This document shows positions 10,162 through 22,832 of a DNA stretch of 22,958 nucleotides, in pieces. Each line of letters starts with the position of its first letter. Positions within the stretch are counted from its first letter, which is position 1. The position numbers were made by a program, and so were the translations under genes. This DNA comes from a virus. Location of the stretch: positions 1 through 22,958 of IMG/VR virus record IMGVR_UViG_3300046028_002024; one strand, given 5' to 3'. Under the pieces are notes generated by a model. It ran no database searches and was not told where the DNA came from. It was given only the letters and a program-made list of their open reading frames with translations.

Positions 10162-11888
10162 TGAGTTCTTATAGTGATTTACAAAAAGCATTTTATATAG
10201 CACAACAAAAAGGTGACACTGAACATGCCACAAAGTTTGCAAAAGAATTAGCAGCACAAGGAACTGATTATAGTGGAAAGCAAGTTGAAGAAGCTAATCT
10301 ACAGGCTGGTGATACATTAGATGGCAATGTTTGGAATGGTAAAGGATGGGTATATCCTGAAAAGTATGATCTACCATTAAAAACTGTTGCTAACACACAA
10401 ACTGTACAAGAAAACAAACCACAGTCATGGTTAAAAGTAGCAACAAGAGGTGTAGCAAATCTTCCATCATCTATTGCTGGCGTAGCTGGTGACGTTGTGT
10501 CTAGCGTTTTACATCCTGTTGATACAGCACAAGGTGTTTTAGATTTAGGCAATGCTGCGCTTCAGAAAGTGCTTCCTGATGCTATTGTTCAAATGATGCC
10601 AGAAAGCACACGCAATAATCCTGCAAAATTAAACGCTGTTGTAGACTTTTATAAATCACGATATACCAATCCTGAAAACTTTAAGGAAGCACTAGCAACT
10701 GATCCAGCCAGCGTATTAGCTGATTTTTCAACAGTTCTTACAGGTGGAGGTTCTTTAGCTTCAAAGATTCCAGCGTTAACTAAGGTTGGTAATGTTGTAG
10801 CAGGTGCAGGACGTATTGTTGATCCACTATCAATAGCAGTTAATGCAGCTCCTTCATTTGGTAAAGGTCTTGCAAATGTAATTGGTGGAGCTGGAACGCA
10901 TACAGGCGGAGAAAGTTTAAAAACAGCAGCTAGAGCAGGAACTGAAGGTGGAAAGATGGCTGAAACATTCTTGGGAAACATGCGTGGAAATGTTCCTATG
11001 AAGGATGTTTTGGATATGGCAAAACAAAATGTTGATGATATGGCTGCTACAAAAGCACAAGCATATCAACAAGGAATAGCCGGTATATCTAATGATAAAT
11101 CAATATTAGATTTTAATAAGATAGACAATACTTTAGCAAATACATATGACAAGATAACATTCAAAGGAAAACCAAAGAATGATGTTGCATTTACTGCTTT
11201 TAGTAAAATAGCTGATGAAATTAATAACTGGAAAAATTTAGATCCTGCTGAATATCATACTCCAATAGGTCTTGATTCGCTTAAGCAAAGAATAGGTGGA
11301 ATACAAGAGTCTATTCCATACGAAGAAAAGACTGCAAGAATGGTAGCTAAAAATCTTTATGATTCAGTAAAGAATGAAATATCTAATCAAGCACCAACCT
11401 ATTCAAAAGTGATGAAGGATTATTCACAGGCATCTGATTTAATCAATGAAATAGAACGTACATTCTCATTAAAACAGTCTGGCAATCCAGATACAGCGAT
11501 GCGTAAACTACAGTCTTTAATGCGTAATAATGTTAATACAAATTATGGAAATAGACTTGATCTGTTTAAAACTTTAGAAGATCAAGGACGTAATCAATTA
11601 ACTTCAGCAATAGCTGGTCAAGCACTTAACTCATGGACTCCAAGAGGTCTTGCAAATGCTGGGTTGACAGGCATAGGAAGTTATGCGGTTGGTGGCGCAC
11701 CATTGGCTGTACCTATGCTTATGGCACAATCACCAAGATTAATGGGGTTATCTGCTTATGGTGTTGGTTTATTATCAAAACCTGTAACAAAAACATCTAA
11801 AAAGTTAAAAGGTATGTTTGATTACCTGAATGTTGATCCAACACTTACTGGAAACTTATTGTATCAGTCTAGGGAGAATCGCCAATGA
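10161..11888 (+). CDS. Large candidate ejection protein with amphipathic/membrane-like segments
   Basis: 575 residues. Starts SYSDLQKAFYIAQQKGDTEHA, a helical repeat-like opening seen in phage ejection proteins, followed by AAQGTDYSG. Residues ~95-135 (TRGVANLPSSIAGVAGDVVS, then a helix) and ~505-555 (GLTGIGSYAVGGAPLAVPML) are Gly/Ala-rich segments that could insert into a membrane. The long helical centre (~255-480) is charged. This arrangement suits a protein that is ejected and crosses the host envelope. ATGA overlap with the following gene. Confidence 0.55.
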   Translation: MSSYSDLQKAFYIAQQKGDTEHATKFAKELAAQGTDYSGKQVEEANLQAGDTLDGNVWNGKGWVYPEKYDLPLKTVANTQTVQENKPQSWLKVATRGVANLPSSIAGVAGDVVSSVLHPVDTAQGVLDLGNAALQKVLPDAIVQMMPESTRNNPAKLNAVVDFYKSRYTNPENFKEALATDPASVLADFSTVLTGGGSLASKIPALTKVGNVVAGAGRIVDPLSIAVNAAPSFGKGLANVIGGAGTHTGGESLKTAARAGTEGGKMAETFLGNMRGNVPMKDVLDMAKQNVDDMAATKAQAYQQGIAGISNDKSILDFNKIDNTLANTYDKITFKGKPKNDVAFTAFSKIADEINNWKNLDPAEYHTPIGLDSLKQRIGGIQESIPYEEKTARMVAKNLYDSVKNEISNQAPTYSKVMKDYSQASDLINEIERTFSLKQSGNPDTAMRKLQSLMRNNVNTNYGNRLDLFKTLEDQGRNQLTSAIAGQALNSWTPRGLANAGLTGIGSYAVGGAPLAVPMLMAQSPRLMGLSAYGVGLLSKPVTKTSKKLKGMFDYLNVDPTLTGNLLYQSRENRQ

Positions 11889-12826
11889 CATTAGAGGAGA
11901 TAGTTAATAGCTTAAAATCTGCTGGACAGGATTATGGTCAGTTGCTCAACAACAATCCAAAGTACACTGCTGTAGCATCAAATGTTACTAAAGGACTTGA
12001 AAATCTTGTACCACCACAGTTTACTAATACTCAAGATGCTAAAAGCCAAGAATACAGCAAAAAAATAGCTGAATGGGCTTTAGGAAATGGTATGGGTATG
12101 AGTGGTATGGCGTTGTCTACTAAAATACCTAATCCTATTAAAGACAATCTTAACGCTACTTTATTGCAAAAATACTTATCAGTAGGAAAGTTATCTCCAA
12201 AAGAAATGACGCAATATGAAGCCAATGCTTTAGCTATGGAAACACCACAATTGCAAAGATATAATGTGGCTAATGCTATGGCTAATCCTGAAAGAGAGGC
12301 GTATAAAAATAGTTTAGACTTTAATTGGGCGCATGGAAGTCCATCTCCTAATATACAAGAGTTAGTTCCATCCGATATTGGAGCAATGGGGCCAGGTGTG
12401 TATGCCACAAATTATTTTCCTGAAGCAGATAGATATGCAACAGAAAACATTGGAGCAACAGTATATCCTTTGGCTGTAAACACATCTAAATCATTTAATC
12501 CTAAAAAAATAGGAAATATTTATGACATCTTAGATGCTGATAATGACAGAATGCTTGGGCAACGGTTAAGTGCAATGGATAAAGATAGCATTATTCAGAC
12601 TCAGCCACCAGCTAGAGCTTATTACAAGCATTTAACTGGAGATAATTTAGATATGATTCCAGCCTTACCAGAAAGAAAGCATTATGTAACAGATTATCAA
12701 AATAACATACGATCCCGATTTGCCGCCTTTGATCCACTAAGAAAAAACAGTTCTAGTTTGTTAGCAAGTGGATTATTAGGTGCTTTATTATTTAACAATG
12801 AAAACAAAACATCAGAGAAAAGATAA
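11885..12826 (+). CDS. ADP-ribosyltransferase-like protein, candidate virion-delivered effector
   Basis: 313 residues; the start overlaps the ejection protein's TGA. Residues 1-140 are helical with no family match (possibly a virion-association region). From residue 147 it shows an ART-like fold pattern: NWAHGS with H150, GAMGPGVYATN with Y173 (residues 166-176), ATVYPLAVNTSKSF (191-204), and later NNIRSRFAAFDPLR (273-286), a motif that ends many phage ART-like domains. H and Y match the first two positions of the H-Y-E class; I cannot place the third catalytic residue with confidence. A C-terminal hydrophobic segment (SSLLASGLLGALLF, 290-303) follows. The position after ejection genes suggests transfer into the host, by analogy with T4 Alt. 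Substrate unknown. Confidence 0.6.
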   Translation: MTLEEIVNSLKSAGQDYGQLLNNNPKYTAVASNVTKGLENLVPPQFTNTQDAKSQEYSKKIAEWALGNGMGMSGMALSTKIPNPIKDNLNATLLQKYLSVGKLSPKEMTQYEANALAMETPQLQRYNVANAMANPEREAYKNSLDFNWAHGSPSPNIQELVPSDIGAMGPGVYATNYFPEADRYATENIGATVYPLAVNTSKSFNPKKIGNIYDILDADNDRMLGQRLSAMDKDSIIQTQPPARAYYKHLTGDNLDMIPALPERKHYVTDYQNNIRSRFAAFDPLRKNSSSLLASGLLGALLFNNENKTSEKR

Positions 12827-12963
12827 TGCCATCAAAATCAAAAGCACAAGAAAAGTTAATGCAAGCAGCAGCCCATAATCCAAAGTTTGCAAAGAAAGTT
12901 AAGATACCAGTTGAGGTTGCTCAAGAGTTTGTAAAAGCTGATAAAGCTAAAAGAAAAAAATAG
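12826..12963 (+). CDS. Small basic phage protein, 45 aa
   Basis: 45 residues from an ATG overlapping the previous TAA: MPSKSKAQEKLMQAAAHNPK... ending KADKAKRKK. Short proteins starting MPxKSKAQ are common at the end of structural operons in podoviruses. No function is known to me. It is the last gene of the + strand block and is followed 16 bases later by a strong terminator. Confidence 0.7.
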   Translation: MPSKSKAQEKLMQAAAHNPKFAKKVKIPVEVAQEFVKADKAKRKK

Positions 12964-12979
12964 TTTTCGCTCGTAGCTT

Positions 12980-13006
12980 GGGGATACCTAAGTATCCCCT
13001 TTTTTT
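12980..13006 (+). terminator. Rho-independent terminator ending the + strand block
   Basis: Perfect 8-bp stem GGGGATAC (12980-12987) / GTATCCCC (12992-12999) with a CTAA loop, followed by seven T residues from 13000. It lies between the two converging blocks. The T-tract also contains the stop codon of the leftward lipoprotein gene (13005-13007). A weaker terminator role on the minus strand is possible, but no T-tract follows directly there. Confidence 0.9.
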
Positions 13007-13256
13007 ATTTACGAACAAATTGACCATCAAGTAAGATCATTTGTGTTTGATAAGCGTTGTTTCTTTCTTGACGTATTTGTCTATCTTGATTAAGTTCATT
13101 TATATAAGCATTATAATTAGCATCATTTCGTTGTTGACGTAATTCATTAGTTATCCTACTTGTTCTTGCTTCTTCTGCCAAATCATAACCAGCATCATCA
13201 TCGCAAGCTAAAACAATAGTTGGTATTAACAGTAATATTAAAAGTAAGTTTTTCAT
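13005..13256 (-). CDS. Small lipoprotein, 83 aa
   Basis: 83 residues beginning MKNLLLILLLIPTIVLAC: a lysine, a 14-residue hydrophobic stretch and the lipobox V-L-A-C, so Cys18 is the predicted lipidation site. Position +2 is Asp (CDDD), which in Enterobacteria signals retention in the inner membrane. The mature part is a polar, charged helix rich in Asn, Gln and Arg, probably a coiled coil. It is the last gene of the leftward block. Phage lipoproteins sometimes block superinfection, but nothing here shows that. Confidence 0.65.
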   Translation of the reverse strand: MKNLLLILLLIPTIVLACDDDAGYDLAEEARTSRITNELRQQRNDANYNAYINELNQDRQIRQERNNAYQTQMILLDGQFVRK

Positions 13257-13354
13257 TTCTTTTCCTCTTTCTTTTTATCTCCAAATATCTTATCCCAATT
13301 TTCTTCAAACTTTTTCCTATCATTTATAGGGCGTGGTGCTGAACCTTTACTCAT
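13253..13354 (-). CDS. Small conserved phage protein MSKGSAPRP-type, 33 aa
   Basis: 33 residues, MSKGSAPRPINDRKKFEENW..., very charged, ending KKKEEKK. Both ends use ATGA overlaps (with the lipoprotein gene and with the next ORF). Phage genomes often carry a tiny protein with the same opening and a central E/NxxWDxIF core. Function unknown. Upstream GGAGG (GGAGGAAAAACA before ATG) is a good ribosome site. Confidence 0.7.
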   Translation of the reverse strand: MSKGSAPRPINDRKKFEENWDKIFGDKKKEEKK

Positions 13355-13494
13355 TGTTTTTCCTCCAGTTGTTTCTCTGCCCATCGTACACCATCTTCAA
13401 AACCTTCTTCCCATTCTTCAGAATAATATTCCTCACTAAATGATGATGAACGTATTGAGTCAATGTATTCTTCTATTTCTTTTTCACTAATCAT
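13351..13494 (-). CDS. Small acidic phage protein, 47 aa
   Basis: 47 residues, MISEKEIEEYIDSIRSSSF... with GFEDGVRWAEKQLEEKQ at the end. Strongly acidic. The GVRWAEKQ end resembles GVKWAEQQ at the end of the protein at 13911-14279, suggesting a shared short module. ATGA overlap with the gene at 13253 and 8-base overlap with the next gene at 13487. Function unknown. Confidence 0.65.
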   Translation of the reverse strand: MISEKEIEEYIDSIRSSSFSEEYYSEEWEEGFEDGVRWAEKQLEEKQ

Positions 13495-13777
13495 CTTTCT
13501 TCCCCCTCTCTGCTAACATTGCGTCTGCCATGGTGTACGACAGTCTTGCTAAAGTTTCCATATCAGGAATATTTTTTGGTAATGTTTGCATAGCCAAGCC
13601 AGCAAAGTGATCTCGGAGGGATATTCCTTCTCGTATATCTTCTCGCATATCTTCTCGTAACTTACTATTTTCTTCTGCTAATTTAAGTATGTGCTTATCA
13701 CGCTCATGTAGTTTTGTTTTAACCCACTTTAATTCCAAATCCATAGGTATTTCTAATCTTTCATATTCAACGCTCAT
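13487..13777 (-). CDS. Conserved phage protein with coiled coil and LRDHFAGLAMQ motif
   Basis: 96 residues. Residues ~15-50 form a charged helix (ELKWVKTKLHERDKHILKLA, then ENSKLRED) that contains the four-residue repeat REDM-REDI-REGI. Residues 53-96 contain LRDHFAGLAMQTLP and YTMADAMLAERGKKDD, a motif pair I recognise from many small phage and prophage proteins of unknown function. ATGA coupling on its upstream side. Confidence 0.65.
   Translation of the reverse strand: MSVEYERLEIPMDLELKWVKTKLHERDKHILKLAEENSKLREDMREDIREGISLRDHFAGLAMQTLPKNIPDMETLARLSYTMADAMLAERGKKDD
13627..13659 (-). repeat. In-frame 12-bp tandem repeat
   Basis: CTTCTCGTATAT, CTTCTCGCATAT and a partial CTTCTCGTAA follow each other directly. 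On the coding (-) strand they give RED(M/I)RED(I)REG. The period keeps the frame, so copy-number change would lengthen the coiled coil by four residues. Confidence 0.75.
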
Positions 13778-13914
13778 TTCTCTCTCCAGTACATACTGTG
13801 CATTGCTTTAGTACTTCTTTGTTTATGTGGGATATACTCAAACTTATATGGATTACAGTGTCTTAGCTCTCGTAAAAAATACGCTATACGACACCAGTTA
13901 TTTTTAATTTTCAT
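13774..13914 (-). CDS. Small basic phage protein, 46 aa
   Basis: 46 residues, MKIKNNWCRIAYFLREL... ending MHSMYWREK, very basic and aromatic-rich. ATGA overlaps on both sides: its stop overlaps the start of the coiled-coil gene and its start overlaps the stop of the gene at 13911. Its ribosome site, GGAGGTGGGGG, is also the last coding sequence (GGGG tail) of the upstream gene. Function unknown. Confidence 0.6.
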   Translation of the reverse strand: MKIKNNWCRIAYFLRELRHCNPYKFEYIPHKQRSTKAMHSMYWREK

Positions 13915-13934
13915 CCCCCACCTCCAATGCCGTG
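13910..13934 (-). repeat. 25-bp direct repeat copy A (gene end plus ribosome site plus next ATG)
   Basis: Identical over 25 bases to 14275-14299. On the minus strand it encodes HGIGGGG and TGA, contains the GGAGGTGGGGG ribosome site, and includes the ATG of the following ORF. Confidence 0.95.
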
Positions 13935-14279
13935 TTGCTGTTCTGCCCACTTAACCCCTTTTACAAACGCTTCTCTCGTAACATTAAACATTGACTGATT
14001 ACCTTCGCTTATTTGTTGTGGTGTTAAAGGCTCTTGCTTCTTAACATATACGTTACCGTCAAGAACTATTGTATTGCCCAGTTCAGGAAAGGTGTCCAAT
14101 TCATTTAGTTTCATTCCACTACTCTCTTTACATTTTTGATAATCCAAAGTTAAAACACATTCCTTCACAACCAATTCAGCAAACTTTCTTAACTCTTGCT
14201 CACAATCATCACCGGATTCAGAAAACCATGAGTCCATAAACCCCGCACGTTCAGCAAGTTCGGCAAGTTTATCGTTCAT
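13911..14279 (-). CDS. Ea22-like modular phage protein, 122 aa
   Basis: 122 residues. N-terminus MNDKLAELAERAGFMDSWF, a helical region with ELRKFAELVVKECVLTL, then KKQEPLTPQQIS, and the end AFVKGVKWAEQQHGIGGGG. The sequences (R/Q)EPLTxxQI and xHGIGG at the C-terminus are typical of a mosaic group of phage early-region proteins related to Ea22/DUF551 types. Function unknown. The last seven codons double as the ribosome site of the next gene. A related protein with the same last seven residues is encoded directly upstream. Confidence 0.6.
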   Translation of the reverse strand: MNDKLAELAERAGFMDSWFSESGDDCEQELRKFAELVVKECVLTLDYQKCKESSGMKLNELDTFPELGNTIVLDGNVYVKKQEPLTPQQISEGNQSMFNVTREAFVKGVKWAEQQHGIGGGG

Positions 14280-14299
14280 CCCCCACCTCCAATGCCGTG
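14275..14299 (-). repeat. 25-bp direct repeat copy B
   Basis: Second exact copy of the 13910-13934 sequence, at the junction of the genes at 14276-14686 and 13911-14279. The repeat spacing (365 bases) equals one gene, which fits duplication or recombination of whole gene cassettes at this site. Confidence 0.95.
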
Positions 14300-14686
14300 A
14301 TACTTTTCAGCATCTCTAAAACCCAAATAATATCCTGCAATGCCCTCGTCTGTTATATTAGCCTCAGCAAGTACATCGAGTTTATCTTCGCTTAAAGGCT
14401 CACGTTTTTGTGGTGCTGTGTAGAGCGGTATCACTTCAAATATTTCCCTGTTGTACAAAAAGGGTGTTAAATCAGATACTTGTGTTCTATAGCCTGTTTC
14501 TTTATTAACTATTATCCATGCCTCAGGTTGCTGTTCAGACATTAAAGATTTTCTACCTTCTTCATAAGCATCATATACATTACTAACGCAAACACCGTTA
14601 GGCATAACAGCCATAGGAGTTGCATTTGATATAGAATCTAGCCCAGTCTGCTCAGGTTGGGCAAGTAACTCTTTTTTTTTACTCAT
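14276..14686 (-). CDS. Ea22-like modular phage protein, 136 aa
   Basis: 136 residues from the ATG at 14686 (overlap ATGAGTAA with the upstream gene). An ATG at 14698 would add four residues; neither has an ideal ribosome site. Contains PEAWIIVNKETGYRTQVSD and VIPLYTAPQKREPLSEDKLD, the typical (V/T)PLYTAPxxREPL linker of mosaic phage early proteins, and ends AEKYHGIGGGG. The C-terminal seven residues match the next protein exactly. A role in the early/lysogenic region of lambdoid phages is known only by location; no biochemical function can be given. Confidence 0.6.
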   Translation of the reverse strand: MSKKKELLAQPEQTGLDSISNATPMAVMPNGVCVSNVYDAYEEGRKSLMSEQQPEAWIIVNKETGYRTQVSDLTPFLYNREIFEVIPLYTAPQKREPLSEDKLDVLAEANITDEGIAGYYLGFRDAEKYHGIGGGG

Positions 14687-14879
14687 AATACATACCATCT
14701 CTAAAATCTATAAATAAATCACATTCAAGTTTATTCAGTTCTTTTTTGAAGTCTCCATGCCACATGAAGTCCTTAGTATCTACTTCAATAGATAAATATC
14801 TTGAACAATTTTCTTTTTTATCGCAGTTACTTCCTAAGCAACGTGCGTTTTCATTCGGCAGTGGATACTTCATCTTCAT
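14679..14879 (-). CDS. Small four-cysteine protein, 66 aa
   Basis: 66 residues starting MKMKYPLPNENARCLG with AGGAG 9 bases before the ATG. C14, C19, C25 and C53 (RCLGSNCDKKENCSRYL) suggest a small metal site. Proteins with an RCxGxxC-C-RYL core recur in phages. The ATG lies inside the end of the HTH gene (29-base overlap) and the stop overlaps the next ATG. Function unknown. Confidence 0.6.
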   Translation of the reverse strand: MKMKYPLPNENARCLGSNCDKKENCSRYLSIEVDTKDFMWHGDFKKELNKLECDLFIDFRDGMYYE

Positions 14880-15129
14880 AATAATAATCTCCTAATTCAA
14901 TGTAATCACCAACACGGGGAGGTGCTTCACCTGTCGCTTTACGATAATACTCTTGCATTGACAAACCTTCCCAGCCATCATGCCATGCATCAGGAACATT
15001 TTTTAATTCTTGTTTAACATTGCTCAATGTACTTACTGCTGCACCTGTTAATCTGGATATACTAGCTAAACTATATCCTTTGCTATAAAGAACTTGCAGT
15101 AAAAGCGCATAATCAACATCTCTAGCCAT
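14851..15129 (-). CDS. Small helix-turn-helix protein, 92 aa
   Basis: 92 residues. Residues ~18-42 (GYSLASISRLTGAAVSTLSN and the following KQEL) have the spacing of a helix-turn-helix with Leu-Ala-xxx-Gly-AAVSTLS, typical of phage DNA-binding regulators. The acidic C-terminal half (GDYIELGDYYYEDEVSTAE) is unlike the DNA-binding part. Start overlaps the stop of the gene at 15122 by 8 bases. Probable transcriptional regulator of this early block; targets unknown. Confidence 0.55.
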   Translation of the reverse strand: MARDVDYALLLQVLYSKGYSLASISRLTGAAVSTLSNVKQELKNVPDAWHDGWEGLSMQEYYRKATGEAPPRVGDYIELGDYYYEDEVSTAE

Positions 15130-15577
15130 TTTTACCTCTGCGTCTTAATTCATCGCAATACAATTCCATGTCTTTACTGCGACGAATAAACTCAACTATT
15201 GATGCTGCCATGCCAGTTAATTTGATTGGTTTAGTTTTTTTAATAAAAGCACAAGCTTCACGGGCGTATGGCAACCATTCCATTATTTCAGCTCTGTTAA
15301 ACAACACAGTGCCATCAATATGCGTGGCAACCTGTTTTGGCATACAATACTTCTTATCTTTGCTAATTCTATCCAACACTAATGCTGTAACACCAATTAA
15401 TGCCATTATTTCTTTCTTGGTTATGTTTTTTTGATTTATTTTCACAACAACATTTAGTTCTTTCAATTTATCTGACTTACGTTTTGCAACAACTCTTACA
15501 TTTATAGCTTTCTTATTCCTGTGATAATATTCCAACATTCTAACTCTTTGCTTTTCTTTGCGTTCTTCTGGTGTCAT
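15122..15577 (-). CDS. Basic phage protein, possibly DNA-binding, 151 aa
   Basis: 151 residues from the ATG at 15577. I chose it because it overlaps (ATGA) the stop of the 37-aa ORF upstream, as at other junctions here. Two longer in-frame starts (15586, 15625) lie within that ORF. Starts MTPEERKEKQRVRMLEYYHR, very basic, then KINQKNITKKEIMALIGVTA with a helix-turn-helix-like MALIGVTALVLDRISKDKK and a helical end. May bind nucleic acid. No family assigned. Confidence 0.5.
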   Translation of the reverse strand: MTPEERKEKQRVRMLEYYHRNKKAINVRVVAKRKSDKLKELNVVVKINQKNITKKEIMALIGVTALVLDRISKDKKYCMPKQVATHIDGTVLFNRAEIMEWLPYAREACAFIKKTKPIKLTGMAASIVEFIRRSKDMELYCDELRRRGKNG

Positions 15578-15687
15578 TGTAACCATGCCTTTAGAGATAA
15601 AATAATTCCTGCTACTAATAAACACCAGATTTGTATTTCTTGATGCTTAGTAAATATATGAACTGGTTTATTCTTATAGTCTTTCAT
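15574..15687 (-). CDS. Small membrane protein, 37 aa
   Basis: 37 residues with a polar N-terminus (MKDYKNKPVHIFTKHQEIQI) and one transmembrane segment (WCLLVAGIILSLKAWL). Stop TGA overlaps the ATG at 15577, and its start overlaps the TGA of the gene at 15684, so both junctions are ATGA. Too short for a family assignment. Precise coupling and a clean membrane segment support translation. Confidence 0.55.
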   Translation of the reverse strand: MKDYKNKPVHIFTKHQEIQIWCLLVAGIILSLKAWLQ

Positions 15688-16130
15688 TTACATGCACTCC
15701 AATTTCGTGCGCTATTAGCTTCAAGGTTATCTCTATATTCAATTCTTGCTGCTTTAGCTGCTTTATATAATTTCTTTGTAATATTATTTTTATTTGGTTC
15801 ACTTAAATAATTTTTTGTTTCTTTTGAAACAACAGTTATATTTATATCTGTATTTTTTAACCATAATGCAATATCTAAAATATCATCAACTTGTTTTTTA
15901 TCTAAAATCTTATATAACTTTTCTAATCTAGTAGCTACAAAACAATAAATATCTAATTTTCTTGGAATAAATCCATTGCTTTTTCTTTTTATTAAATCCA
16001 TATCATCATTAGTCAACTTATTATTAATTTTAAAAGTATGTTCCAACCTTAAAATTTTATAATTTGGTTTTTCATAAAAATGATTCATCAAACAAATATC
16101 CCATCTCATTTGCAATCTTTCAATATTCAT
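15684..16130 (-). CDS. Hypothetical protein, 148 aa
   Basis: 148 residues from ATG 16130; the frame could extend to a TTG at 16142 but there is no better ribosome site there. Rich in Lys, Asn and Ile, with predicted helices (MNIERLQMRWDICLMNHFYE; DIYCFVATRLEKLYKIL; TKKLYKAAKAARIEYRDN). More AT-rich and repetitive in codon use than its neighbours. It is the first gene after the minus-strand terminator, so it needs its own promoter or readthrough. No domain recognised. Confidence 0.5.
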   Translation of the reverse strand: MNIERLQMRWDICLMNHFYEKPNYKILRLEHTFKINNKLTNDDMDLIKRKSNGFIPRKLDIYCFVATRLEKLYKILDKKQVDDILDIALWLKNTDINITVVSKETKNYLSEPNKNNITKKLYKAAKAARIEYRDNLEANSARNWSACK

Positions 16131-16140
16131 AATATTACCC

Positions 16141-16167
16141 AAAAAAATGCCCAGTCATAAGCTGGGC
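16141..16167 (-). terminator. Rho-independent terminator, leftward
   Basis: On the minus strand GCCCAG (16167-16162), a 7-base loop, CTGGGC (16154-16149), then ATTTTTTT (16148-16141). A second short hairpin (CTTCC/GGAAG) overlaps the stop of the gene at 16184. This should end leftward transcripts from the SSB-helicase side before the small-ORF block. Confidence 0.8.
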
Positions 16168-16183
16168 GAGTGGTTGCTTCCCC

Positions 16184-16429
16184 TCAGGAAGTAATTAATT
16201 GATTTGCTTTCCAGTCCATTGCTTCACGAACTAGATAATTAATATCTGTATGTTTTGGCGATAATGTTGCGTTCTCTAACAATCCAAATAGTTCAGATCC
16301 GTCTGTTTCTGCTATTTCAGCGTTAATTATTGCTTGGCAATAGTCTACAAAGGCTTGTGCTATTAAAATGCCACCAAGCGATTGATCTGTACGCATATCA
16401 GTTATTATTTTATCAAATTGCTCTTCCAT
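16184..16429 (-). CDS. Hypothetical acidic protein, 81 aa
   Basis: 81 residues, mostly helical (MEEQFDKIITDMRTDQSLGG, then ILIAQAFVDYCQAIINAE) and acidic. The start overlaps the stop of the upstream gene (TAATG), and it is the last gene before the terminator at 16141. No recognisable motif. Confidence 0.55.
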   Translation of the reverse strand: MEEQFDKIITDMRTDQSLGGILIAQAFVDYCQAIINAEIAETDGSELFGLLENATLSPKHTDINYLVREAMDWKANQLITS

Positions 16430-16653
16430 TAGAAATCACCTTTGTTTGGTGCTACAAATGAAGGAACATTACTTGGAAGCTCAAGAACTTGGTAAATCTG
16501 CTCCTCTCCCTTCAGATTCTTTTGGATAATGAAGCTACCACTTCGAGTTTTGTGGATTACGCTGGATTGACTATCATTTTTATAATTTGTACCTGCAAAA
16601 ATACCAATTATAAAAGTTGTTAATGCTATTGTTGCTATTTGTTTATTGTTCAT
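16429..16653 (-). CDS. Small single-span membrane protein, 74 aa
   Basis: 74 residues. The N-terminus MNNKQIATIALTTFIIGIFAG has a positive charge then a hydrophobic segment (residues ~6-20), followed by a polar domain with HKTRSGSFIIQKNLKGEEQI and a C-terminal PSFVAPNKGDF. An AGAGAG site lies 5 bases upstream. Predicted to sit in the inner membrane with the tail in the periplasm or cytoplasm; direction not clear. Function unknown. Confidence 0.6.
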   Translation of the reverse strand: MNNKQIATIALTTFIIGIFAGTNYKNDSQSSVIHKTRSGSFIIQKNLKGEEQIYQVLELPSNVPSFVAPNKGDF

Positions 16654-16677
16654 AATTTCTCTCTAGTTGTTGTTAAT

Positions 16678-16693
16678 GCCACATCCTTGTGGC
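16678..16693 (-). promoter_or_regulatory. Intergenic hairpin with AGGA loop, copy 1
   Basis: GCCACA (16678-16683) / TGTGGC (16688-16693) with a 4-base loop that reads AGGA on the minus strand. It lies in the 51-base gap between the genes at 16705 and 16653. The 12-base core CACATCCTTGTG recurs exactly at 22866-22877. No T-tract follows, so it does not look like a terminator. It might stabilise or process mRNA, or bind a protein. Confidence 0.5.
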
Positions 16694-16704
16694 GGTGGTT
16701 AATC

Positions 16705-16971
16705 CTATATAACATTTACTGGCAATAAATCATCGCCAGCAAAGAAGCTCCATAAAAGTTCTGGTTGTTCTGTATACCTAGAGTTTCCCAACTCGTAGAT
16801 TTTACCAGCGTCTCCCATTACAGCTGTGGTGCGGTTGCCATGCGATATTACAGCACGATGATCATCCATGATCTGGATGGTAGTAACCCATCCAAAAGCT
16901 GTAAACTTACCTGCGATAATATCGCAGTCTTCGTAACTATACGCTTCGGATTTTAATATTTTAATTCTCAT
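16705..16971 (-). CDS. Hypothetical protein, 88 aa
   Basis: 88 residues from ATG 16971, preceded by AAAGGGG 8 bases upstream. The frame extends to 17091 but that would overlap the nuclease gene, so the shorter start is preferred. Contains KILKSEAYSYEDCDIIAGKF and TTIQIMDDHRAVISHGNR, then YTEQPELLWSFFAGDDLLP. Compact alpha/beta look; no family recognised. Confidence 0.5.
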   Translation of the reverse strand: MRIKILKSEAYSYEDCDIIAGKFTAFGWVTTIQIMDDHRAVISHGNRTTAVMGDAGKIYELGNSRYTEQPELLWSFFAGDDLLPVNVI

Positions 16972-17020
16972 CTTATTTACCCCTTTGTATTTCTTGTTAA
17001 GTTGGGCATAGATTAAATAA

Positions 17021-17443
17021 TTATTTATCAAATTGCAAATATTTTTTATCTTTCCAGAAAATAAATGCTTCATATGCTCCAACATAACCAAGAGCTACAC
17101 AAGCGAAAGCCCCTTGTTTCTTGGCTTCCAAGAGATATTCTTGCTGTCCATCTTGCCATTTTGACCGTGTATGATCTTGACGTTTTAATTCACAGACGAA
17201 CGCAACGCTTGCTGGAATTAAAATATCAGATGCTCCTTTTGTCATGCCTTCACTTTTTTGTTTAGCAACCTGGTGATAAGTACGCAGTCCTTCATTTCTT
17301 ATGTGCGTTGCAATCTTTCCATAACTGTCTGGGTATTCTCTTCTAAGTTTTGCAAAGAATGTTACTGCTTCAGCAGCTTCAGAAGGACATTCACCTCTAA
17401 ACTCAATATCACCAAAAACTTTTATATCATTGTGGAACTTCAT
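17021..17443 (-). CDS. VRR-NUC-like PD-(D/E)XK nuclease
   Basis: 140 residues from ATG 17443; AGGA lies 6 bases before it (an ATG two codons earlier abuts the AGGA and is unlikely). Overlaps the end of the helicase gene by 17 bases. Contains the PD-(D/E)XK pattern GMTKGASDILIP with D73, then VCELKRQDHTRSKWQDGQQ with E85-x-K87 and the Q pair, and GAFACVALGYVGAYEAF. This is the typical small VRR-NUC nuclease encoded beside phage helicases. Expected to cut branched DNA or nick during replication/recombination. Product and substrate are not shown. Confidence 0.7.
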   Translation of the reverse strand: MKFHNDIKVFGDIEFRGECPSEAAEAVTFFAKLRREYPDSYGKIATHIRNEGLRTYHQVAKQKSEGMTKGASDILIPASVAFVCELKRQDHTRSKWQDGQQEYLLEAKKQGAFACVALGYVGAYEAFIFWKDKKYLQFDK

Positions 17444-19211
17444 CGGCATTCCTGTTGTAGTCGTATATCCTAAAAAAATCACCACTTTTTCTATAAGTGA
17501 TGGTGGTTGGTGTTGTAAAGCCTCCATCAGTAAACGCCATAAAAGCATCGTAGTGCTTCTGCATCTTCATGGTAAACCATACTGGAAACGATCTATACTC
17601 GGTTACAAAATCAACCCGTAGGCATTCATTTCCTGCCTTGCTTAGTGTGGGAGTTGCTCGCATTGCAACAACCTTATCAGTTTGTATCTGCGTGGGGTCT
17701 TTTTTCTTCATCTGGAAGTCAGAAATTAGCTTGCTGTTTGGGTCAATCAGTTCGTGCTTGCACTCGCAACAATACCTTGCTGCAATATCGTTTTCAGCTT
17801 CACAATGCACACAAGGTTTAAACGTCCATCTATAGCTGCATCTAACCAGTTTCTTTATGGTCTTGTTAAATACTTCCCCATAACATCTTCTGCCATGATG
17901 GGCTGGCATATCTCCATATTCTGTTTCTAGTCGTATTCCTTCAAGATCAATAAAATATCCATTAATGTCAATCTCATGTTTTGCTTCATTAATTACTGGT
18001 GCAAACTGATTTATTGCTCTGCACTCTGGACATTGTGCTTCTATTGCTTCACCAGCTCCACAATTACTTGATGCTTCAATTTCTGGATTAAATAAATCAC
18101 CATCAGTACAATGACGACTAATATTTTCTGCATAATCAAGAATCAGACAGTCATCTTTGTTGTTATCAATTCTAAGTCCTCTACCAATTATTTGTTGGAG
18201 TAAACTAACTGACTCGGTAGCTCTTAAAATAGCCACCAAATCAACGTGTGGGGCATCAAATCCTGTAGTCAACACGCTAACATTAACTAAATATTTAAGC
18301 CTTCTAGCTTTAAATAATCGCAGTATTTCAGCACGTTCTTGTTTGGGTGTTTCGCCAGTAACAATTGCTGATAACGATGGCGGTAACGACCCCATTACCT
18401 CGCCAGCATGTTGCACTGTAGCTGCAAAAATCATTACACCTTGTCTATCTACTGCTTGCGATACAATATCGCCCACAATTGAGCTGGTGAGCCTTCCTTG
18501 TCCATGAAATGCCCTATCAATGTCAGCAGCATCAAAGTTACCCATGCGATTGGTTTGCAACTCCAATGTTTCATAATGACCTGTATTGATTCCCCCAATA
18601 GTAGGAGCTGTTAAATAACCTTGTTTTATTAAATCTCTCGCATAAACAGTAAACACTCTTGCGCTAAAGTAAGGATCTTTTGCTTTATCGTCACCATAAG
18701 CATTGCCATGCTCGTCCATCCTATATATATAGCCATCACCAAGACGGTATGGCGTTGCTGACAAACCTATGACCCTAAGATTAGGATTACAGGCAACCAA
18801 AGATTCAATGATGCTTTTAACGGTTGGTGTTATCCTATGTGCTTCATCCAGTACAACCGCACAAAATTTAGCTCCAAAACGATGAATCTTATTCTTGACG
18901 CTAACAGGTGTGCCAAAAACTACTGGATGTTTTAAACATGTTTCACCAACACTTGCACTAAACAAACTGCATTGATTACCAGTATCTCTATATTTCTCTG
19001 CATTTTGTTCTAACAGCTCTTTTGATGGGACAAGACACAATATATGTTTACCACCACTAACTTGGTGTAGTGTATTTGCTATTGCTGCAACAATTAAAGA
19101 TTTGCCACTCCCTGTTGGCAGTTCTAATACGCATGGTGATGTACATTTCTTTATCCAGTCTATAGCAGCATCATGCGCTTGTGATTGGTATGGGCGCAGT
19201 TTCATAATCAT
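17427..19211 (-). CDS. SF2 DEAH-type helicase with C-terminal zinc ribbon
   Basis: 594 residues. Motif I LPTGSGKS (31-38), motif II DEAH (122-125), motif III SATP (151-154), motif VI QIIGRGLR (340-347), with LTTGFDAPHVDLV (314-326) typical of motif V. It belongs to the RecG/UvsW/type I restriction-like group of phage SF2 helicases. Residues ~384-397 (C-x-GAGEAIEAQCPEC) and ~458-484 (C467-x2-C470, C481, C482, C484) are cysteine-rich zinc-ribbon-like sequences. The C-terminal ~90 residues (SFPVWFTMKMQKHYDAFMAF) are a family-typical extension. Start overlaps the preceding stop (TAATG). Probable replicative, recombination or repair helicase. Confidence 0.88.
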   Translation of the reverse strand: MIMKLRPYQSQAHDAAIDWIKKCTSPCVLELPTGSGKSLIVAAIANTLHQVSGGKHILCLVPSKELLEQNAEKYRDTGNQCSLFSASVGETCLKHPVVFGTPVSVKNKIHRFGAKFCAVVLDEAHRITPTVKSIIESLVACNPNLRVIGLSATPYRLGDGYIYRMDEHGNAYGDDKAKDPYFSARVFTVYARDLIKQGYLTAPTIGGINTGHYETLELQTNRMGNFDAADIDRAFHGQGRLTSSIVGDIVSQAVDRQGVMIFAATVQHAGEVMGSLPPSLSAIVTGETPKQERAEILRLFKARRLKYLVNVSVLTTGFDAPHVDLVAILRATESVSLLQQIIGRGLRIDNNKDDCLILDYAENISRHCTDGDLFNPEIEASSNCGAGEAIEAQCPECRAINQFAPVINEAKHEIDINGYFIDLEGIRLETEYGDMPAHHGRRCYGEVFNKTIKKLVRCSYRWTFKPCVHCEAENDIAARYCCECKHELIDPNSKLISDFQMKKKDPTQIQTDKVVAMRATPTLSKAGNECLRVDFVTEYRSFPVWFTMKMQKHYDAFMAFTDGGFTTPTTITYRKSGDFFRIYDYNRNADEVPQ

Positions 19212-19438
19212 TAATTACTCAGTTCAATACGTTTAAAAAAAGAATACCATTTTGATGGCTTTGCTGTATTGCCAAGCGTTAATAAACCATGATCATTCTT
19301 TAAAATAGCTATTGCTATAGCTTTGTATGATGGAGCTAAATTATTTTTCATTAACTCAGCAGGAACTTCATCAGGGATATCTATTGGATAACCCTGTTCT
19401 TTCCATTTATTAATATAATCTTGTATTTTCCCAATCAT
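19211..19438 (-). CDS. 75-aa protein resembling the IbrA/PAPS-reductase C-terminal domain
   Basis: 75 residues: a helical start (MIGKIQDYINKWKEQGYPID), then IPDEVPAELMKNNLAPSYKA, IAIAILKNDH and SKWYSFFKRIE. The last 50 residues align with the C-terminus of the PP-loop protein at 20671, which has YPDHTDDIRNNN, EIASWKRFAITILKNDH and a helical end. So it looks like a detached copy of that domain. AAGGA sits 9 bases before the ATG. Its stop overlaps the helicase start (TAATG). I recall similar solitary short proteins in phages with IbrA-like genes. Role unknown; perhaps a partner or accessory subunit. Confidence 0.6.
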   Translation of the reverse strand: MIGKIQDYINKWKEQGYPIDIPDEVPAELMKNNLAPSYKAIAIAILKNDHGLLTLGNTAKPSKWYSFFKRIELSN

Positions 19439-19793
19439 TTAATTTTATCCTTGCTGCATTGTTTGCTTCTATTTTTTGATAATCATCTAATAAAAAGAAA
19501 CCACTTTTAAATGTGCTTGGTATTTTATTTGCCAAACACATTGATGACTGCCCAAGCCAAGCTATTCTATTTATACTTGGATTAGATAAAAAATGTTCTG
19601 AAGAATATTTCCATGTTTTTATTACTTCATCCATTGAATAATTAAACAACTCAATATCTGATAAAAAAATTGCATATTCTTCTTTGCACTGTTCTTTTGT
19701 TTTTCCATCAGGTGGAATAGTGCTATAAAATCCTGCTTTATAGCACTCCCATAGCCACCAAGGATGATAAATCCTAAGCCCATTCTTCTTCAT
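19410..19793 (-). CDS. Conserved uncharacterised protein of the IbrA/IbrB cassette, 127 aa
   Basis: 127 residues from ATG 19793 (a longer frame to 19844 lies within the ParB-like gene). Contains IYHPWWLWECYKAGFYSTIP, SSEHFLSNPSINRIAWLGQS, then KIPSTFKSGFFLLDDYQKIE and NNAARIKLNDW. The conserved-looking EHFLSNxSINRIAWLGQSS block and Trp-rich opening are seen in phage proteins encoded next to IbrA/IbrB-type genes; no function is known to me. Overlaps the end of the ParB-like gene by 20 bases and the next gene by 29 bases, so it is part of one transcription unit. Confidence 0.6.
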   Translation of the reverse strand: MKKNGLRIYHPWWLWECYKAGFYSTIPPDGKTKEQCKEEYAIFLSDIELFNYSMDEVIKTWKYSSEHFLSNPSINRIAWLGQSSMCLANKIPSTFKSGFFLLDDYQKIEANNAARIKLNDWENTRLY

Positions 19794-20301
19794 CTGCTTC
19801 CCAACTATCAGAAAAACTACGATTTTGAAATAAAGCAGCAACACCAGTTATTTGTTTTAATCTCAATAACTCATCAACACTCATTCCAATATGTTTGCAT
19901 ATCCAAGCATCTCCTTTTCCCATTTCAACAAGCTCAGAAACTATAGTACTCATTAATTCAATATTATGAGAACCTCTAGCTCTGTTATGTCTGATAGTAG
20001 ATGCCATTCTGTCGCCAAGTTCTTTTTTGATTACAACAATTGGCAGCATGTTATTTTCACGCTCTCTTATGCGCTCACTATTTTTCATTGTTAAATAGCG
20101 GTGAAACCCATCTACTACAATGTAAATGTCTTTTGTATCATCGTAATAAGTAACAATTGGCTGCGTATATCCATCTTCCCATATTGATGTTTCTAATAAA
20201 GCCATCTCAGGTGGAGCAACTGCATTAGGGTTGTAATCATTTGCAGTTACTTGGCTAAATGGAACGCAAAGTACGTTATAAACTGGAGATTTAAATGTCA
20301 T
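19774..20301 (-). CDS. IbrB-like ParB-fold protein
   Basis: 175 residues from ATG 20301 (AAGGA 8 bases upstream; the longer frame to 20328 runs into the cupin gene). ParB/Srx-type N-terminal domain: FSQVTANDYNPN (15-26), QPIVTYY, YIVVDGFHRYLTMK (60-73, with D64-G65-F66-H67-R68), PIVVIKKELGDRMASTIRHN (87-106) and RARGSH (107-112). Then an HTH-like helical part GKGDAWICKHIGMSVDELLR and the end SFSDSWEADEEEWA. This pattern matches IbrB, the partner of IbrA, which in E. coli regulates eib genes. ParB-fold proteins may bind DNA, act as CTPases or modify nucleic acid. Activity not shown. Confidence 0.75.
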   Translation of the reverse strand: MTFKSPVYNVLCVPFSQVTANDYNPNAVAPPEMALLETSIWEDGYTQPIVTYYDDTKDIYIVVDGFHRYLTMKNSERIRERENNMLPIVVIKKELGDRMASTIRHNRARGSHNIELMSTIVSELVEMGKGDAWICKHIGMSVDELLRLKQITGVAALFQNRSFSDSWEADEEEWA

Positions 20302-20674
20302 ATGAATTATCCTTATTGTGGACCTCAAGTCCTGTTAATGGTGGGTTAAATACGCATAGCAGCTCTACTGTAGAAAAAGCTATAAATGAATGCGGATCAT
20401 TGTTGTCAAGAACGTACATTGTGCCGGGCAATATTCTATGCTTTTCTCCTGTATTTTTATTTGTAATACATCCATGACCTTTTATGCAATAACAAGCTTC
20501 AAGATGATTTTTATAATGCCAATGTTGCTCTCCATTTGGAGGTATTATTGTATTTGTTACAGAAAATCCCATATTGTCTTTTTCAAGCAAAAACCTTCTG
20601 CTTAAAAACCCTCCTTTTGGGCATTTAACTTCTCTTTCTGTTCCTGCTAACTCATGTAATTTAATTATTTTCAT
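20291..20674 (-). CDS. Ectoine-synthase-like (EctC-like) cupin
   Basis: 127 residues, the usual size of EctC (~130), starting MKIIKLHELAGTEREVKCPK. Conserved motifs in order: SRRFLLEKDNMGFSVTNTII, HWHYKNHLEACYCIKGHG, GEKHRILPGTMYVLDNNDPH, LLCVFNPPLTGLEVH. The residues equivalent to the iron ligands of Paenibacillus lautus EctC (Glu57, Tyr85, His93, as I recall) are E59, Y87, H95, with a constant offset of 2; C107 and F109 match the substrate-site Cys/Phe. EctC closes the ring of N-gamma-acetyl-diaminobutyrate to make ectoine. No EctA or EctB gene is in the window, and the flanking genes are IbrA/IbrB-like, so the real substrate is uncertain. ATGA overlap with the gene upstream. Confidence 0.8.
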   Translation of the reverse strand: MKIIKLHELAGTEREVKCPKGGFLSRRFLLEKDNMGFSVTNTIIPPNGEQHWHYKNHLEACYCIKGHGCITNKNTGEKHRILPGTMYVLDNNDPHSFIAFSTVELLCVFNPPLTGLEVHNKDNSYDI

Positions 20675-21972
20675 AATTTTTTATATTTTTCCATAATATT
20701 ACGTTGTCTCAATGATTGTTCTTTTGTTGGAGCAAATCCCATGTATTTACAGGTATGGTCATTTTTTAAAATAGTAATTGCAAATCGTTTCCATGAAGCA
20801 ATTTCACTATTATTATTTCTTATATCATCAGTATGGTCTGGGTATTTTTTAATTATCACTCTAATTTTGTCTTTCCTTCCATGAGGAGTTAATCCGTTTT
20901 CTTTTATCTTTATACGGTTACTTTCTCTTAGTTGTTTTAAAGTACTGTCTGATACGGTTTGCCCAACTCTACCCCAGTATTTTATAGATTGAACAAACCG
21001 CATTTTAAAATTTATAGAAACTTCCTCCGGTAAAGTTGCCAATAAAAATTTAACAAATGATTTCCATGTATGTCCTTCTGGAAGCTTAAAAGTATTGTAA
21101 TTAAGTTGTTTTCCATAAGTTGCTATAAAGTTAGCACCTTGCACTCTGGCACATAATTTAGCCCATGTATGAGGATCAATAACTCGATACAAACCTAAAC
21201 TAGATTTAGACTCAGACATAAATGGAGACGCAACCCTCATTCTATGAACTGGAATACCTGCTTTATAAAAAATATCGTAAAGCTTGTTGTAATCCCAATC
21301 ATATATATAATTAGCCGTCCAAACATCTTCTGTTCTCCAATCATAAATGGGGTAACAATTATAAGAATGTTCAGTATTCTTTTTTGTCCACATTTGACCG
21401 CCTAATGTTTCCTTGCGTTGATTCATAATTGCTCTAAACCTGTTTAAACTTTCAACAGTTCTAATTCCAATTAAATTTGCGCAAGTTTTGCCTTGTGAAT
21501 ACCATTCTGAAAATCCATCCCAGAATTTATCGTATGGCATATCTTCTTCAAAAAATGGAAAATTATGATTTTCAAAATTAACAATGTAATCTTGTTTTGG
21601 CATAGGGCGTATCCATCTTTCTTTATCTCTATTACCCCAGCATTGCCATTCAACTGCATACGAACTTATTGTGCAAGGAAGCGTTATTGGCAAACAACAC
21701 CAATAAATTTCAAGCAAATCTCTATTTGAATCAAGTATTTTGTGCATAAACTCTACAGACAATTCATAATTTGCTTCATTGTCTAAAATTTGAATGCCTA
21801 TTTTTTTTGTTATTCCTTTTTCCCTCATATATTTCAAAACAAAATTAAGCATTACTCCAGAATCTTTGCCGCCTGAAAATGAAAGATATATTCTTTCAAA
21901 ATTATTAAATATAAAATCTAATCTTTCTACGCCTGCATCCCAAACATTCTTATTTCTGTTATAAGTTCTCAT
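20671..21972 (-). CDS. IbrA-like PAPS-reductase-family protein (DUF3440-type)
   Basis: 433 residues from ATG 21972, with GGAGG 5 bases upstream; a TTG four codons earlier is less likely. N-terminal PP-loop ATPase: YLSFSGGKDSGVMLNFVLKY with SGGKDSG at 33-39, the ATP-binding loop of PAPS reductases and related thiolating/adenylating enzymes. Later: TCANLIGIRTVESLNRFRAI, CYPIYDWRTEDVWTANYIYD, RMRVASPFMSESKSSLGLYR and the C-terminal SWKRFAITILKNDHTCKYMG. This layout matches IbrA and phage DUF3440 proteins, not assimilatory PAPS reductase. Known partner: IbrB, encoded two genes on. Possible chemistry (sulfur transfer, adenylation of nucleic acid or small molecule) is inference. ATGA overlaps upstream and downstream. 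Confidence 0.82.
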   Translation of the reverse strand: MRTYNRNKNVWDAGVERLDFIFNNFERIYLSFSGGKDSGVMLNFVLKYMREKGITKKIGIQILDNEANYELSVEFMHKILDSNRDLLEIYWCCLPITLPCTISSYAVEWQCWGNRDKERWIRPMPKQDYIVNFENHNFPFFEEDMPYDKFWDGFSEWYSQGKTCANLIGIRTVESLNRFRAIMNQRKETLGGQMWTKKNTEHSYNCYPIYDWRTEDVWTANYIYDWDYNKLYDIFYKAGIPVHRMRVASPFMSESKSSLGLYRVIDPHTWAKLCARVQGANFIATYGKQLNYNTFKLPEGHTWKSFVKFLLATLPEEVSINFKMRFVQSIKYWGRVGQTVSDSTLKQLRESNRIKIKENGLTPHGRKDKIRVIIKKYPDHTDDIRNNNSEIASWKRFAITILKNDHTCKYMGFAPTKEQSLRQRNIMEKYKKL

Positions 21973-22832
21973 GTCAACCTCCAATAACTACTAGGAGGTG
22001 ATTGATATTTAGTAAGGTCTGCATCAGGCAATAATTCTTTTATGGCTTTAGCGTAGGATATAGCACCATCACGGTGTACTTGTGTTAGTTTGTGTCCAGC
22101 AATCTCACTATCCTTTCCACCAGCCAATGTAACTATCTCAGCTAATATATCTTTGCGTGTTGCTTCTAGCTTCTTAATTTCTTCTGTTGCTGCAAGATAC
22201 AGTTCCAACATTGCTTCACATTGAAGTTGTTGGCGTTTATCTTCCAAATACTTTATACAGACTGGTGCTTCACGTTCCACAAGATACTTATTATAAAATG
22301 TTCTAAGTTCCGGTAAGTATTTATCAATAGCTAAAGGATTAAACCAAACTGTTTCTAGCATCTCTCCATGTGCAGACCATTGGTAGAAATGACACCATTC
22401 CCTACCAGTAACTAACAACTGTATTTGTATTTGCATCCAGTAATGCGTTTGGTAGTCTATGCTTTTAAACTCTGGTGGGTTTTTGTCACGCAAACCATAT
22501 GGGCATTTAATTTCAATTAAACCGTCAGTATCGATCAAACCATCTGGTGATGCTCCAAGCCAATCTTCATAAGTATGAAAACCAGTTTCTACTACTTTTT
22601 TATCAAACTTCAATTCGTAATCAGCTAAAGCATTGGGTTCGTTATACGTTCCATAGCTAGTCGCTGGATTACCAGTAAACTCACTTGGATAGCCATGATA
22701 ATCACGAACCATGTTACGCATAACATCTTCACGTTTCATAAATGGCGACAATCCTAGAATTGCACCAACATTACTACCAGTTATACGACCTTTGCGTTTT
22801 TCAAACCATTCTTCTGTACGTTGTTGTTCCAT
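21969..22832 (-). CDS. YqaJ/lambda-exonuclease-type recombination nuclease
   Basis: 287 residues. RTEEWFEKRKGRITGSNVGA opening, AILGLSPF, SYGTYNEPNALADYE (with E65 in the helix), then GASPDGLIDTDGLIEIKCPY (D97, E107, K109) and YWMQIQIQLLVTG, giving the D-(E)XK plus Q motif order of viral alkaline exonucleases. Its C-terminal ~90 residues form a helical extension. Expected to digest one strand of dsDNA ends for recombination. The upstream neighbour ends like an SSB, so the pair could work with an annealing protein, which is not in the window. Confidence 0.88.
   Translation of the reverse strand: MEQQRTEEWFEKRKGRITGSNVGAILGLSPFMKREDVMRNMVRDYHGYPSEFTGNPATSYGTYNEPNALADYELKFDKKVVETGFHTYEDWLGASPDGLIDTDGLIEIKCPYGLRDKNPPEFKSIDYQTHYWMQIQIQLLVTGREWCHFYQWSAHGEMLETVWFNPLAIDKYLPELRTFYNKYLVEREAPVCIKYLEDKRQQLQCEAMLELYLAATEEIKKLEATRKDILAEIVTLAGGKDSEIAGHKLTQVHRDGAISYAKAIKELLPDADLTKYQSPPSSYWRLT

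Follow-up and report, generated by a model that had tools for sequence, protein, structure and literature searches.

The question raised by this locus is what a 25-base sequence that stands twice, letter for letter, in an array of small phage genes does there. The window, by which we mean the whole stretch of DNA analysed (22,958 nucleotides, IMG/VR record IMGVR_UViG_3300046028_002024), had been given a sequence-only reading, in which the two copies were described as identical, each as the end of one gene, a ribosome site and the start of the next gene at once, with exactly one gene between them, and in which the repeat was proposed to work as a recombination joint for swapping small gene cassettes while translational coupling is preserved automatically. 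The genes of the array lie on the minus strand, and the features of the window that bear on the question are:

14275..14299 (-): joint copy 1; end of the 140-aa gene (HGIGGGG and stop), GGAGG ribosome site, ATGA overlap with the 122-aa gene
13910..13934 (-): joint copy 2; the same 25 bases, end of the 122-aa gene and start of the 46-aa gene
14276..14698 (-): 140-aa mosaic protein; N-part disordered, followed by a small beta module, a helical hairpin and the tail HGIGGGG
14648..14668 (-): LLAQPEQ linker inside the 140-aa gene; TTACTTGCCCAACCTGAGCAG, close to the consensus with fixed codons
14390..14407 (-): KREPLS linker inside the 140-aa gene; AAACGTGAGCCTTTAAGC, likewise close to its consensus with fixed codons
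13911..14279 (-): 122-aa mosaic protein, between the joint copies; C-module LTPQQISEGNQSMFNVTREAFVKGVKWAEQQ followed by HGIGGGG
13774..13914 (-): 46-aa gene (MKIKNNWCRIAYFL...); conserved gene that follows the array, with its start in joint copy 2
13487..13777 (-): 96-aa gene flanking the array, conserved, used as marker of the downstream side; C-module DHFAGLAMQ...ADAML, phrog_2201
14679..14879 (-): 66-aa gene flanking the array, conserved, used as marker of the upstream side; CLGSNCDK, 74 relatives
21969..22832 (-): YqaJ/RecE-like recombination exonuclease with the orientation of the array; candidate joint-recombining machinery

The description of the repeat was confirmed. The segments 13910-13934 and 14275-14299 are identical at 25 of 25 positions, the adjoining base differs on either side, and the minus-strand reading is CACGGCATTGGAGGTGGGGGATGAA, that is, H G I G G G G, a stop and an A. 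Both copies contain the HGIGGGG end, the GGAGG and the ATGA: the TGA lies at 13913-13911 in copy 2 and at 14278-14276 in copy 1, the ATG of the next gene lies at 13914-13912 and 14279-14277, respectively, in a 4-base ATGA overlap with the stop, and GGAGG stands 6 nt 5' of that ATG, so that the window joints have the stop/start overlap and the SD motif inside the upstream gene that characterize ATGA pairs. The single gene between the copies is exactly the 122-aa gene (13911-14279). No match to the joint pattern was found in 100 dinucleotide shuffles with up to 3 mismatches allowed, and the probability of 25/25 identity given the same heptapeptide is about 4 × 10−4 (arithmetic from body codon use). 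In the sister contig IMGVR_UViG_3300034064_000207, the two copies differ at one base, copy 1 being GGGGAATGA (HGIGGGE and stop), and over 12473-20879 (8.4 kb) the two contigs differ at window position 14280 alone; one joint could have been converted by the other, or the difference could be an artefact of assembly or error correction. The adjacent 600 bases (11873-12472) contain 57 differences, and the alignment thus places a sharp recombination border near 12472. Neither RNA structure (z from −1.24 to +0.65 at six joints) nor inverted repeats (window 13780-14420) were found, so that the joint has neither the inverted repeats nor the stable fold of an integron-type recombination site. Elsewhere in the window, Gly-rich repeats (GGT/GGA runs) occupy 994-1530 (+) within a 485-aa putative tail protein (100-1557).

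The exact 25-mer, which the sequence-only reading took as the element, turned out to be one spelling within a larger joint family, with ends such as HGIGGGE, HGIGVDDE, HGITGGGE and others, each followed by a stop; a commoner spelling, CAYGGYATTGGAGGTGRGGAATGA, was found in 87 stretches in a pattern scan. For codon tests, we used only loci that were fetched by their flanking genes, and discarded loci fetched by the joint pattern as biased. In the retained loci, 114 distinct genes end in HGI followed by 1-9 residues. At the 94 HGIG ends, CAC is used in 81% of cases vs. 24% in the bodies of the same genes, GGC in 57% vs. 14%, ATT in 91% vs. 41%, and GGA in 94% vs. 23%, the following base always being G; these percentages are descriptive, as the gene copies are related. 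GGAG is present in 88 of the 94 HGIG joints, and GGGG in the remainder. Across all loci, an ATG-started frame lies at or overlaps the stop in 196 of 208 joints, with ATGA in 107 of the 208; of the proposed automatic preservation of coupling, this geometry is the part that is borne out, and coupling itself is inferred by analogy with the pairs described in PMC6728339. In a few cases translation reads through the joint, or the copy stands outside a long HGI frame. Read-through occurs in L008 (4642-5025, +) and L010 (8557-8940, reverse strand), where HGIGGG is fused directly to the flanking gene's C-terminal module, DHFAGIAMQ...ADAMI, to give a fusion protein.

A degenerate scan for AIE-x-AHGIG identified at least 120 stretches, in contigs of 34-67% GC. 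Among the matches listed, the spelling CACGGAATAGGAGAATAG ends 16 genes, with 13 unrelated C modules among them, at 40-46% GC, CACGGGATTGGAGGTGAAGCATGA ends 5 genes at 51-58% GC, and the spelling of the window's group, CAYGGYATTGGAG, occurs in 0 of 58 contexts with a GC content of at least 0.5; the core of the ribosome site in other spellings is GGAG in 57 and GGGG in 27 of the 104 ORFs among these matches. The DNA spelling of the joint therefore tracks the phage group. Since the peptide is widespread and its spellings are group-specific, the tail peptide is probably old, with the joint DNA probably homogenized within groups.

Finding the same 25-mer beside different small genes had been proposed as the check on cassette swapping. 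An exact scan identified the 25-mer in three other IMG/VR contigs, one of which is the sister virus; in the other two (L003/L160 and L001/L012), a different gene of a 126-aa type is followed by the same 25-mer and the same 46-aa gene. The flanks of L003/L160 are homologous to those of the window (the 66-aa CLGSNCDK gene on one side, the 46-aa and 98-aa genes on the other), and one different 126-aa HGIGGGG gene stands in place of the window's two HGIGGGG genes. In L001/L012 the 126-aa type likewise precedes the 46-aa gene, where the contig stops. DNA similarity between these relatives and the window extends from the downstream genes through the joint and ends 8 bases past it (13942). L001 also encodes a phage integrase (PF00589; 9895-10905, -), which suggests that some of these phages may be temperate; among the window proteins scanned, which are part of the total, there is no integrase. 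All relatives are metagenome contigs. Cultured phages gave no DNA match to the window, and in tblastn searches of them with four family proteins, three had no match and the fourth had one weak partial match (ON524861, E = 4 × 10−4). One DNA-pattern scan of bacterial and archaeal genomes, which took in GGG[G/E]-type ends only, returned 11 matches, none of them ending a family gene, and these were attributed to chance.

Gain or loss of cassettes between joint copies, the other comparison proposed, was also observed. Between 0 and 4 HGI genes follow the upstream flanking gene, depending on the relative, and L226/L233 vs. L228/L202 allow a clean before/after comparison: two joints of L226 enclose two additional cassettes (498 nt), and the single joint of L228 equals L226 joint 1 on its left side (TTGGGTTTTAGAGA.GCTGA.AAG.ATCACGGCATTGGAGGTGGGGAATGA) and L226 joint 2 on its right side (ATGATAGTTTCTATAGGGTTGTTAACGG), and is thus a hybrid. 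Among non-redundant contexts, the DNA similarity of pairs that share the left gene stops within 60 nt past the joint start in 97 of 104 cases (93%), compared to 136 of 252 (54%) at other gene junctions of the same phages; in pairs that share the right gene, similarity starts at the joint in 20 of 27 cases (74%), compared to 13 of 126 (10%) at other junctions. These counts depend on BLAST ends, and the sequence pairs are not independent; P values are descriptive only. The same short sequence thus borders otherwise unrelated modules, and homology breakpoints between genomes fall at it. Metagenomes that were assembled separately contain the same arrays, 98-100% identical over 2.5-12 kb.

The lengths of shared sequence bear on the route of exchange. 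Of 119 joints, 101 match a joint of unrelated context perfectly over 23 nt or more, and 70 over 31 nt or more, whereas random windows reach 12 nt at most. Between neighbouring joints within one genome, the median shared run is 15 nt, and 9 of 54 adjacent pairs, that of the window among them, share at least 23 nt perfectly. Efficient pairing is cited as requiring at least 23-27 bp with Red-beta and 31-34 bp with RecA (PMC3945230); by this measure, exchange between genomes appears feasible and deletion within a genome usually does not. Because identical neighbouring joints are uncommon and 101 of 119 joints match an unrelated context elsewhere, exchange between phages is the likelier route. The proposal of a cassette-swapping joint is accordingly upheld as far as replacement, gain and loss are concerned, judging from comparison of genomes, and has to be amended in that the 25-mer is one spelling of several and identical copies within a genome, as in the window, are uncommon. 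Identity length and gene content together suggest that exchange would proceed by homologous recombination at the joint.

Shuffling also takes place inside the genes, at two further codon-fixed linkers that the sequence-only reading had not included. The proteins share the layout M-S-K-E-R-E-L-L start, variable part, LLAQPEQ..EPVAW, variable part, PLYTAPPKREPLS, variable part, HGIGGGE and stop. In the KREPLS linker, CGT is used in 88% of cases vs. 16% in bodies and GAG in 100% vs. 41%; in the LLAQPEQ linker, CTC is used in 91% vs. 10% and GCC in 91% vs. 12% (the figures cover these two linkers, with the SKERELL and RAIEKA rows left out). Among the 122 proteins with usable N and C modules, C modules being defined at fixed length, there are 63 N types, 48 C types and 110 distinct combinations, compared to 116 ± 2 expected under random reassortment (adjusted mutual information 0.06); N- and C-terminal modules thus assort almost freely. 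Single-linkage clustering of C modules merged nearly everything, because the linkers are shared, and was replaced. Two side cases concern the modules: blocks of 96-98% identity stand in reversed order in L092 (1596-2428) and L136 (6667-7382), which combine one N-part (MNKEICILNGTKWILGDESTEPMNWEDANNWCKSIG..) with different C-modules; and a 47-aa protein of the window (13351-13494, -) contains GFEDGVRWAEKQ, like the end of the 122-aa gene's C-module, FVKGVKWAEQQ, with no HGIG tail.

The 140-aa protein likely starts at MSKKKELL (14686). Its AlphaFold2 model (pLDDT 70.6, pTM 0.39) begins with an N-part of low confidence, continues with a small beta module modelled confidently, a linker and a helical hairpin, and ends in a tail that has no secondary structure; the predicted module borders coincide with the linkers. 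Nothing in Pfam or NCBIfam matches the protein, and its PHROG matches have E values no better than 0.008. A fold search of the model against PDB gave no significant match, and in the viral library only uncharacterised phage proteins matched; very weak matches to Ead/Ea22 and DUF551 folds were not counted. More generally, the HGI-tailed proteins tested have no Pfam or NCBIfam match above cut-off, and their PHROG matches are weak or partial, with a partial match to phrog_60 (E = 6.6 × 10−6) in one relative. We found no paper on HGI-tailed proteins in the literature searched, although some may exist.

Candidate machinery for the exchange is encoded in the window and its sister contig. In the sister contig, which is 99% identical, a DUF669 SSB and a Sak4-like annealing protein are encoded directly upstream of the YqaJ exonuclease; the window has the YqaJ gene and ends before the other two, so that the window and its sister together hold a Sak4/YqaJ module. 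The Sak4 of phage HK620 anneals single strands together with its SSB (PMC5928155), and we infer that YqaJ, SSB and the Sak4-like protein carry out the exchange at the joint. In a set of 30 related contigs, of which many may be fragments, YqaJ was detected in 10, and the RecT, Erf and Rad52 families in none; the recombining enzyme is therefore a candidate and may differ between relatives. Among the minus-strand phage genes of this part of the window are also an ectoine synthase (20291-20674, -; PF06339, E = 1.8 × 10−44; NCBIfam ectoine synthase above cut-off) and, adjoining it, a PAPS reductase/DUF3440 gene (20671-21984), which are possible auxiliary metabolic genes.

We consider it probable that the joint is a coding element, gene end, ribosome site and start in one, through which phages recombine and replace, gain or lose cassettes, and it seems to let them shuffle genes without breaking them. 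Its last codons give each gene a standard tail (...A-HGIG-GG[E/G] and stop), its GGAG(G) is the ribosome site of the next gene, and its ATGA serves as stop and start, by which the two genes would be coupled. Recombination of two phages inside the joint would bring any left gene before any right gene, in frame and with the ribosome site intact, because the same joint ends many unrelated small genes in a freshwater phage community; cassettes would thereby be replaced, gained or lost, the joint DNA would stay nearly identical within each exchanging group of phages, and a phage exonuclease with a single-strand annealing protein (YqaJ, SSB and Sak4-like) would perform the exchange. A broader version is that the codon-fixed linkers (LLAQPEQ, KREPLS and the HGIG joint) bound modules that annealing-type recombination within the phage community reassorts freely, with frame and expression kept, in a natural combinatorial gene assembly in which the spellings proper to each group limit exchange to that group; we put this forward tentatively, as a possibility that we hold to be somewhat less than evenly probable.

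In phage mosaicism, breaks at gene borders are frequent in any case (54% at the control junctions), and GGAG has a role of its own as a ribosome site, which qualifies the sequence-only reading. Recombination may therefore exploit the joint without having shaped it, the tail peptide too having its own role. In a rival explanation the joint would serve expression only, as ribosome site and ATGA termination-reinitiation point, its sharing reflecting old common ancestry, with modules exchanged by any route and in-frame products selected. The retention of GGAG in 88 of 94 HGIG joints and in other spellings (57 GGAG and 27 GGGG in 104 ORFs, among the matches listed), the ATGA in 107 of 208 joints and the coupling established for other genes at such overlaps (PMC6728339) are all consistent with it. 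Nevertheless, we regard this explanation as unlikely, for it accounts neither for the fixed third positions 5' of GGAG (CAC, GGC/GGT, ATT) between unrelated bodies, nor for the fixed codons of KREPLS and LLAQPEQ, which have no ribosome-site role, nor for homology ending more often at the joint than at other junctions. Selection on the AHGIG tail itself, as a C-terminal tag or interaction site, with the DNA identity coming from recent gene duplication, would fit the conservation of the peptide at 34-67% GC despite different spellings; it is at odds with codons that are fixed within groups, with a tail predicted to have no secondary structure and with the few cases of joint DNA read through or outside an HGI gene end, and appears very unlikely.

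Still less credence can be given to a regulatory site, bound by a protein or RNA that controls translation of the array, as proposed for Start Associated Sequences. The ribosome-site position, the several copies per genome and the resemblance to SAS (PMC3203893) are what such a site would have, but the six joints show no RNA structure, inverted repeats are absent, the internal linkers are fixed too, and the element is spelled differently among phage groups, which is not expected of a site bound by one factor. The least probable explanation, in our judgement, is that assemblers joined unrelated genes at short repeats. It is true that the relatives are all metagenome contigs and that the only sister-virus difference over 8.4 kb falls in the joint; yet the same arrays turn up, 98-100% identical over 2.5-12 kb, in metagenomes assembled separately, no frame or overlap is broken, and repeats of 25-40 nt are short compared to usual reads.

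Of the known systems, the short conserved boundary sequences of phage mosaicism are the closest kind, and the joint belongs with these. Genes 67 and 68 of phage Island3 have a common 60-bp 3' end, of which Brujita has a single recombinant copy (PMC3029335); there, as here, unrelated genes share repeated ends, gene gain or loss leaves one hybrid copy, and homology-based exchange has been proposed. That case is one event in two phages, whereas the joint ends more than 100 different genes in many phages, contains the ribosome site and the next start, and is accompanied by codon-fixed intragenic linkers and lineage-specific spellings. The SAS of Cluster K mycobacteriophages, with a 13-bp consensus GGGATAGGAGCCC upstream of starts, are likewise short, multi-copy, associated with non-structural genes, mostly in one orientation and followed by different gene families, with AGGAG just before start codons; however, they are described by their position before starts and not as a shared C-terminal coding sequence or recombination joint (PMC3203893), and in a consensus comparison the joint consensus CACGGYATTGGAGGTGGGGRATGA agrees with theirs at GGAG and a few bases around it, and nowhere else. 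ATGA termination-reinitiation pairs have the same overlap and an SD motif inside the upstream gene end, each pair with its own sequence (PMC6728339), whereas the joint is one standard sequence common to many unrelated genes. Domain mosaicism of phage proteins also involves fragments common to unrelated proteins and ongoing shuffling; its description is agnostic on genetic mechanism and most robust for proteins of known function (PMC10684548), unlike the array, where fixed DNA linkers mark the module borders of proteins without a named family. Relaxed homologous recombination by annealing proteins (PMC3945230; Sak4, PMC5928155) relies on a phage-encoded exonuclease and annealing protein and tolerates short homology, as may the candidates here. 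What is new relative to known boundary sequences is the union of coding end, ribosome site and start, the large-scale use, and the intragenic linkers.

It has long been asked whether phage mosaicism arises from homology at short shared borders, or from illegitimate joining and subsequent selection. The joint is a plentiful natural example: in many phages a border sequence stands at most junctions of an array, the breakpoints can be measured and there is a candidate for the recombinase, so that the homology hypothesis becomes directly testable. Its study also describes a widespread group of unnamed phage proteins made of interchangeable modules.
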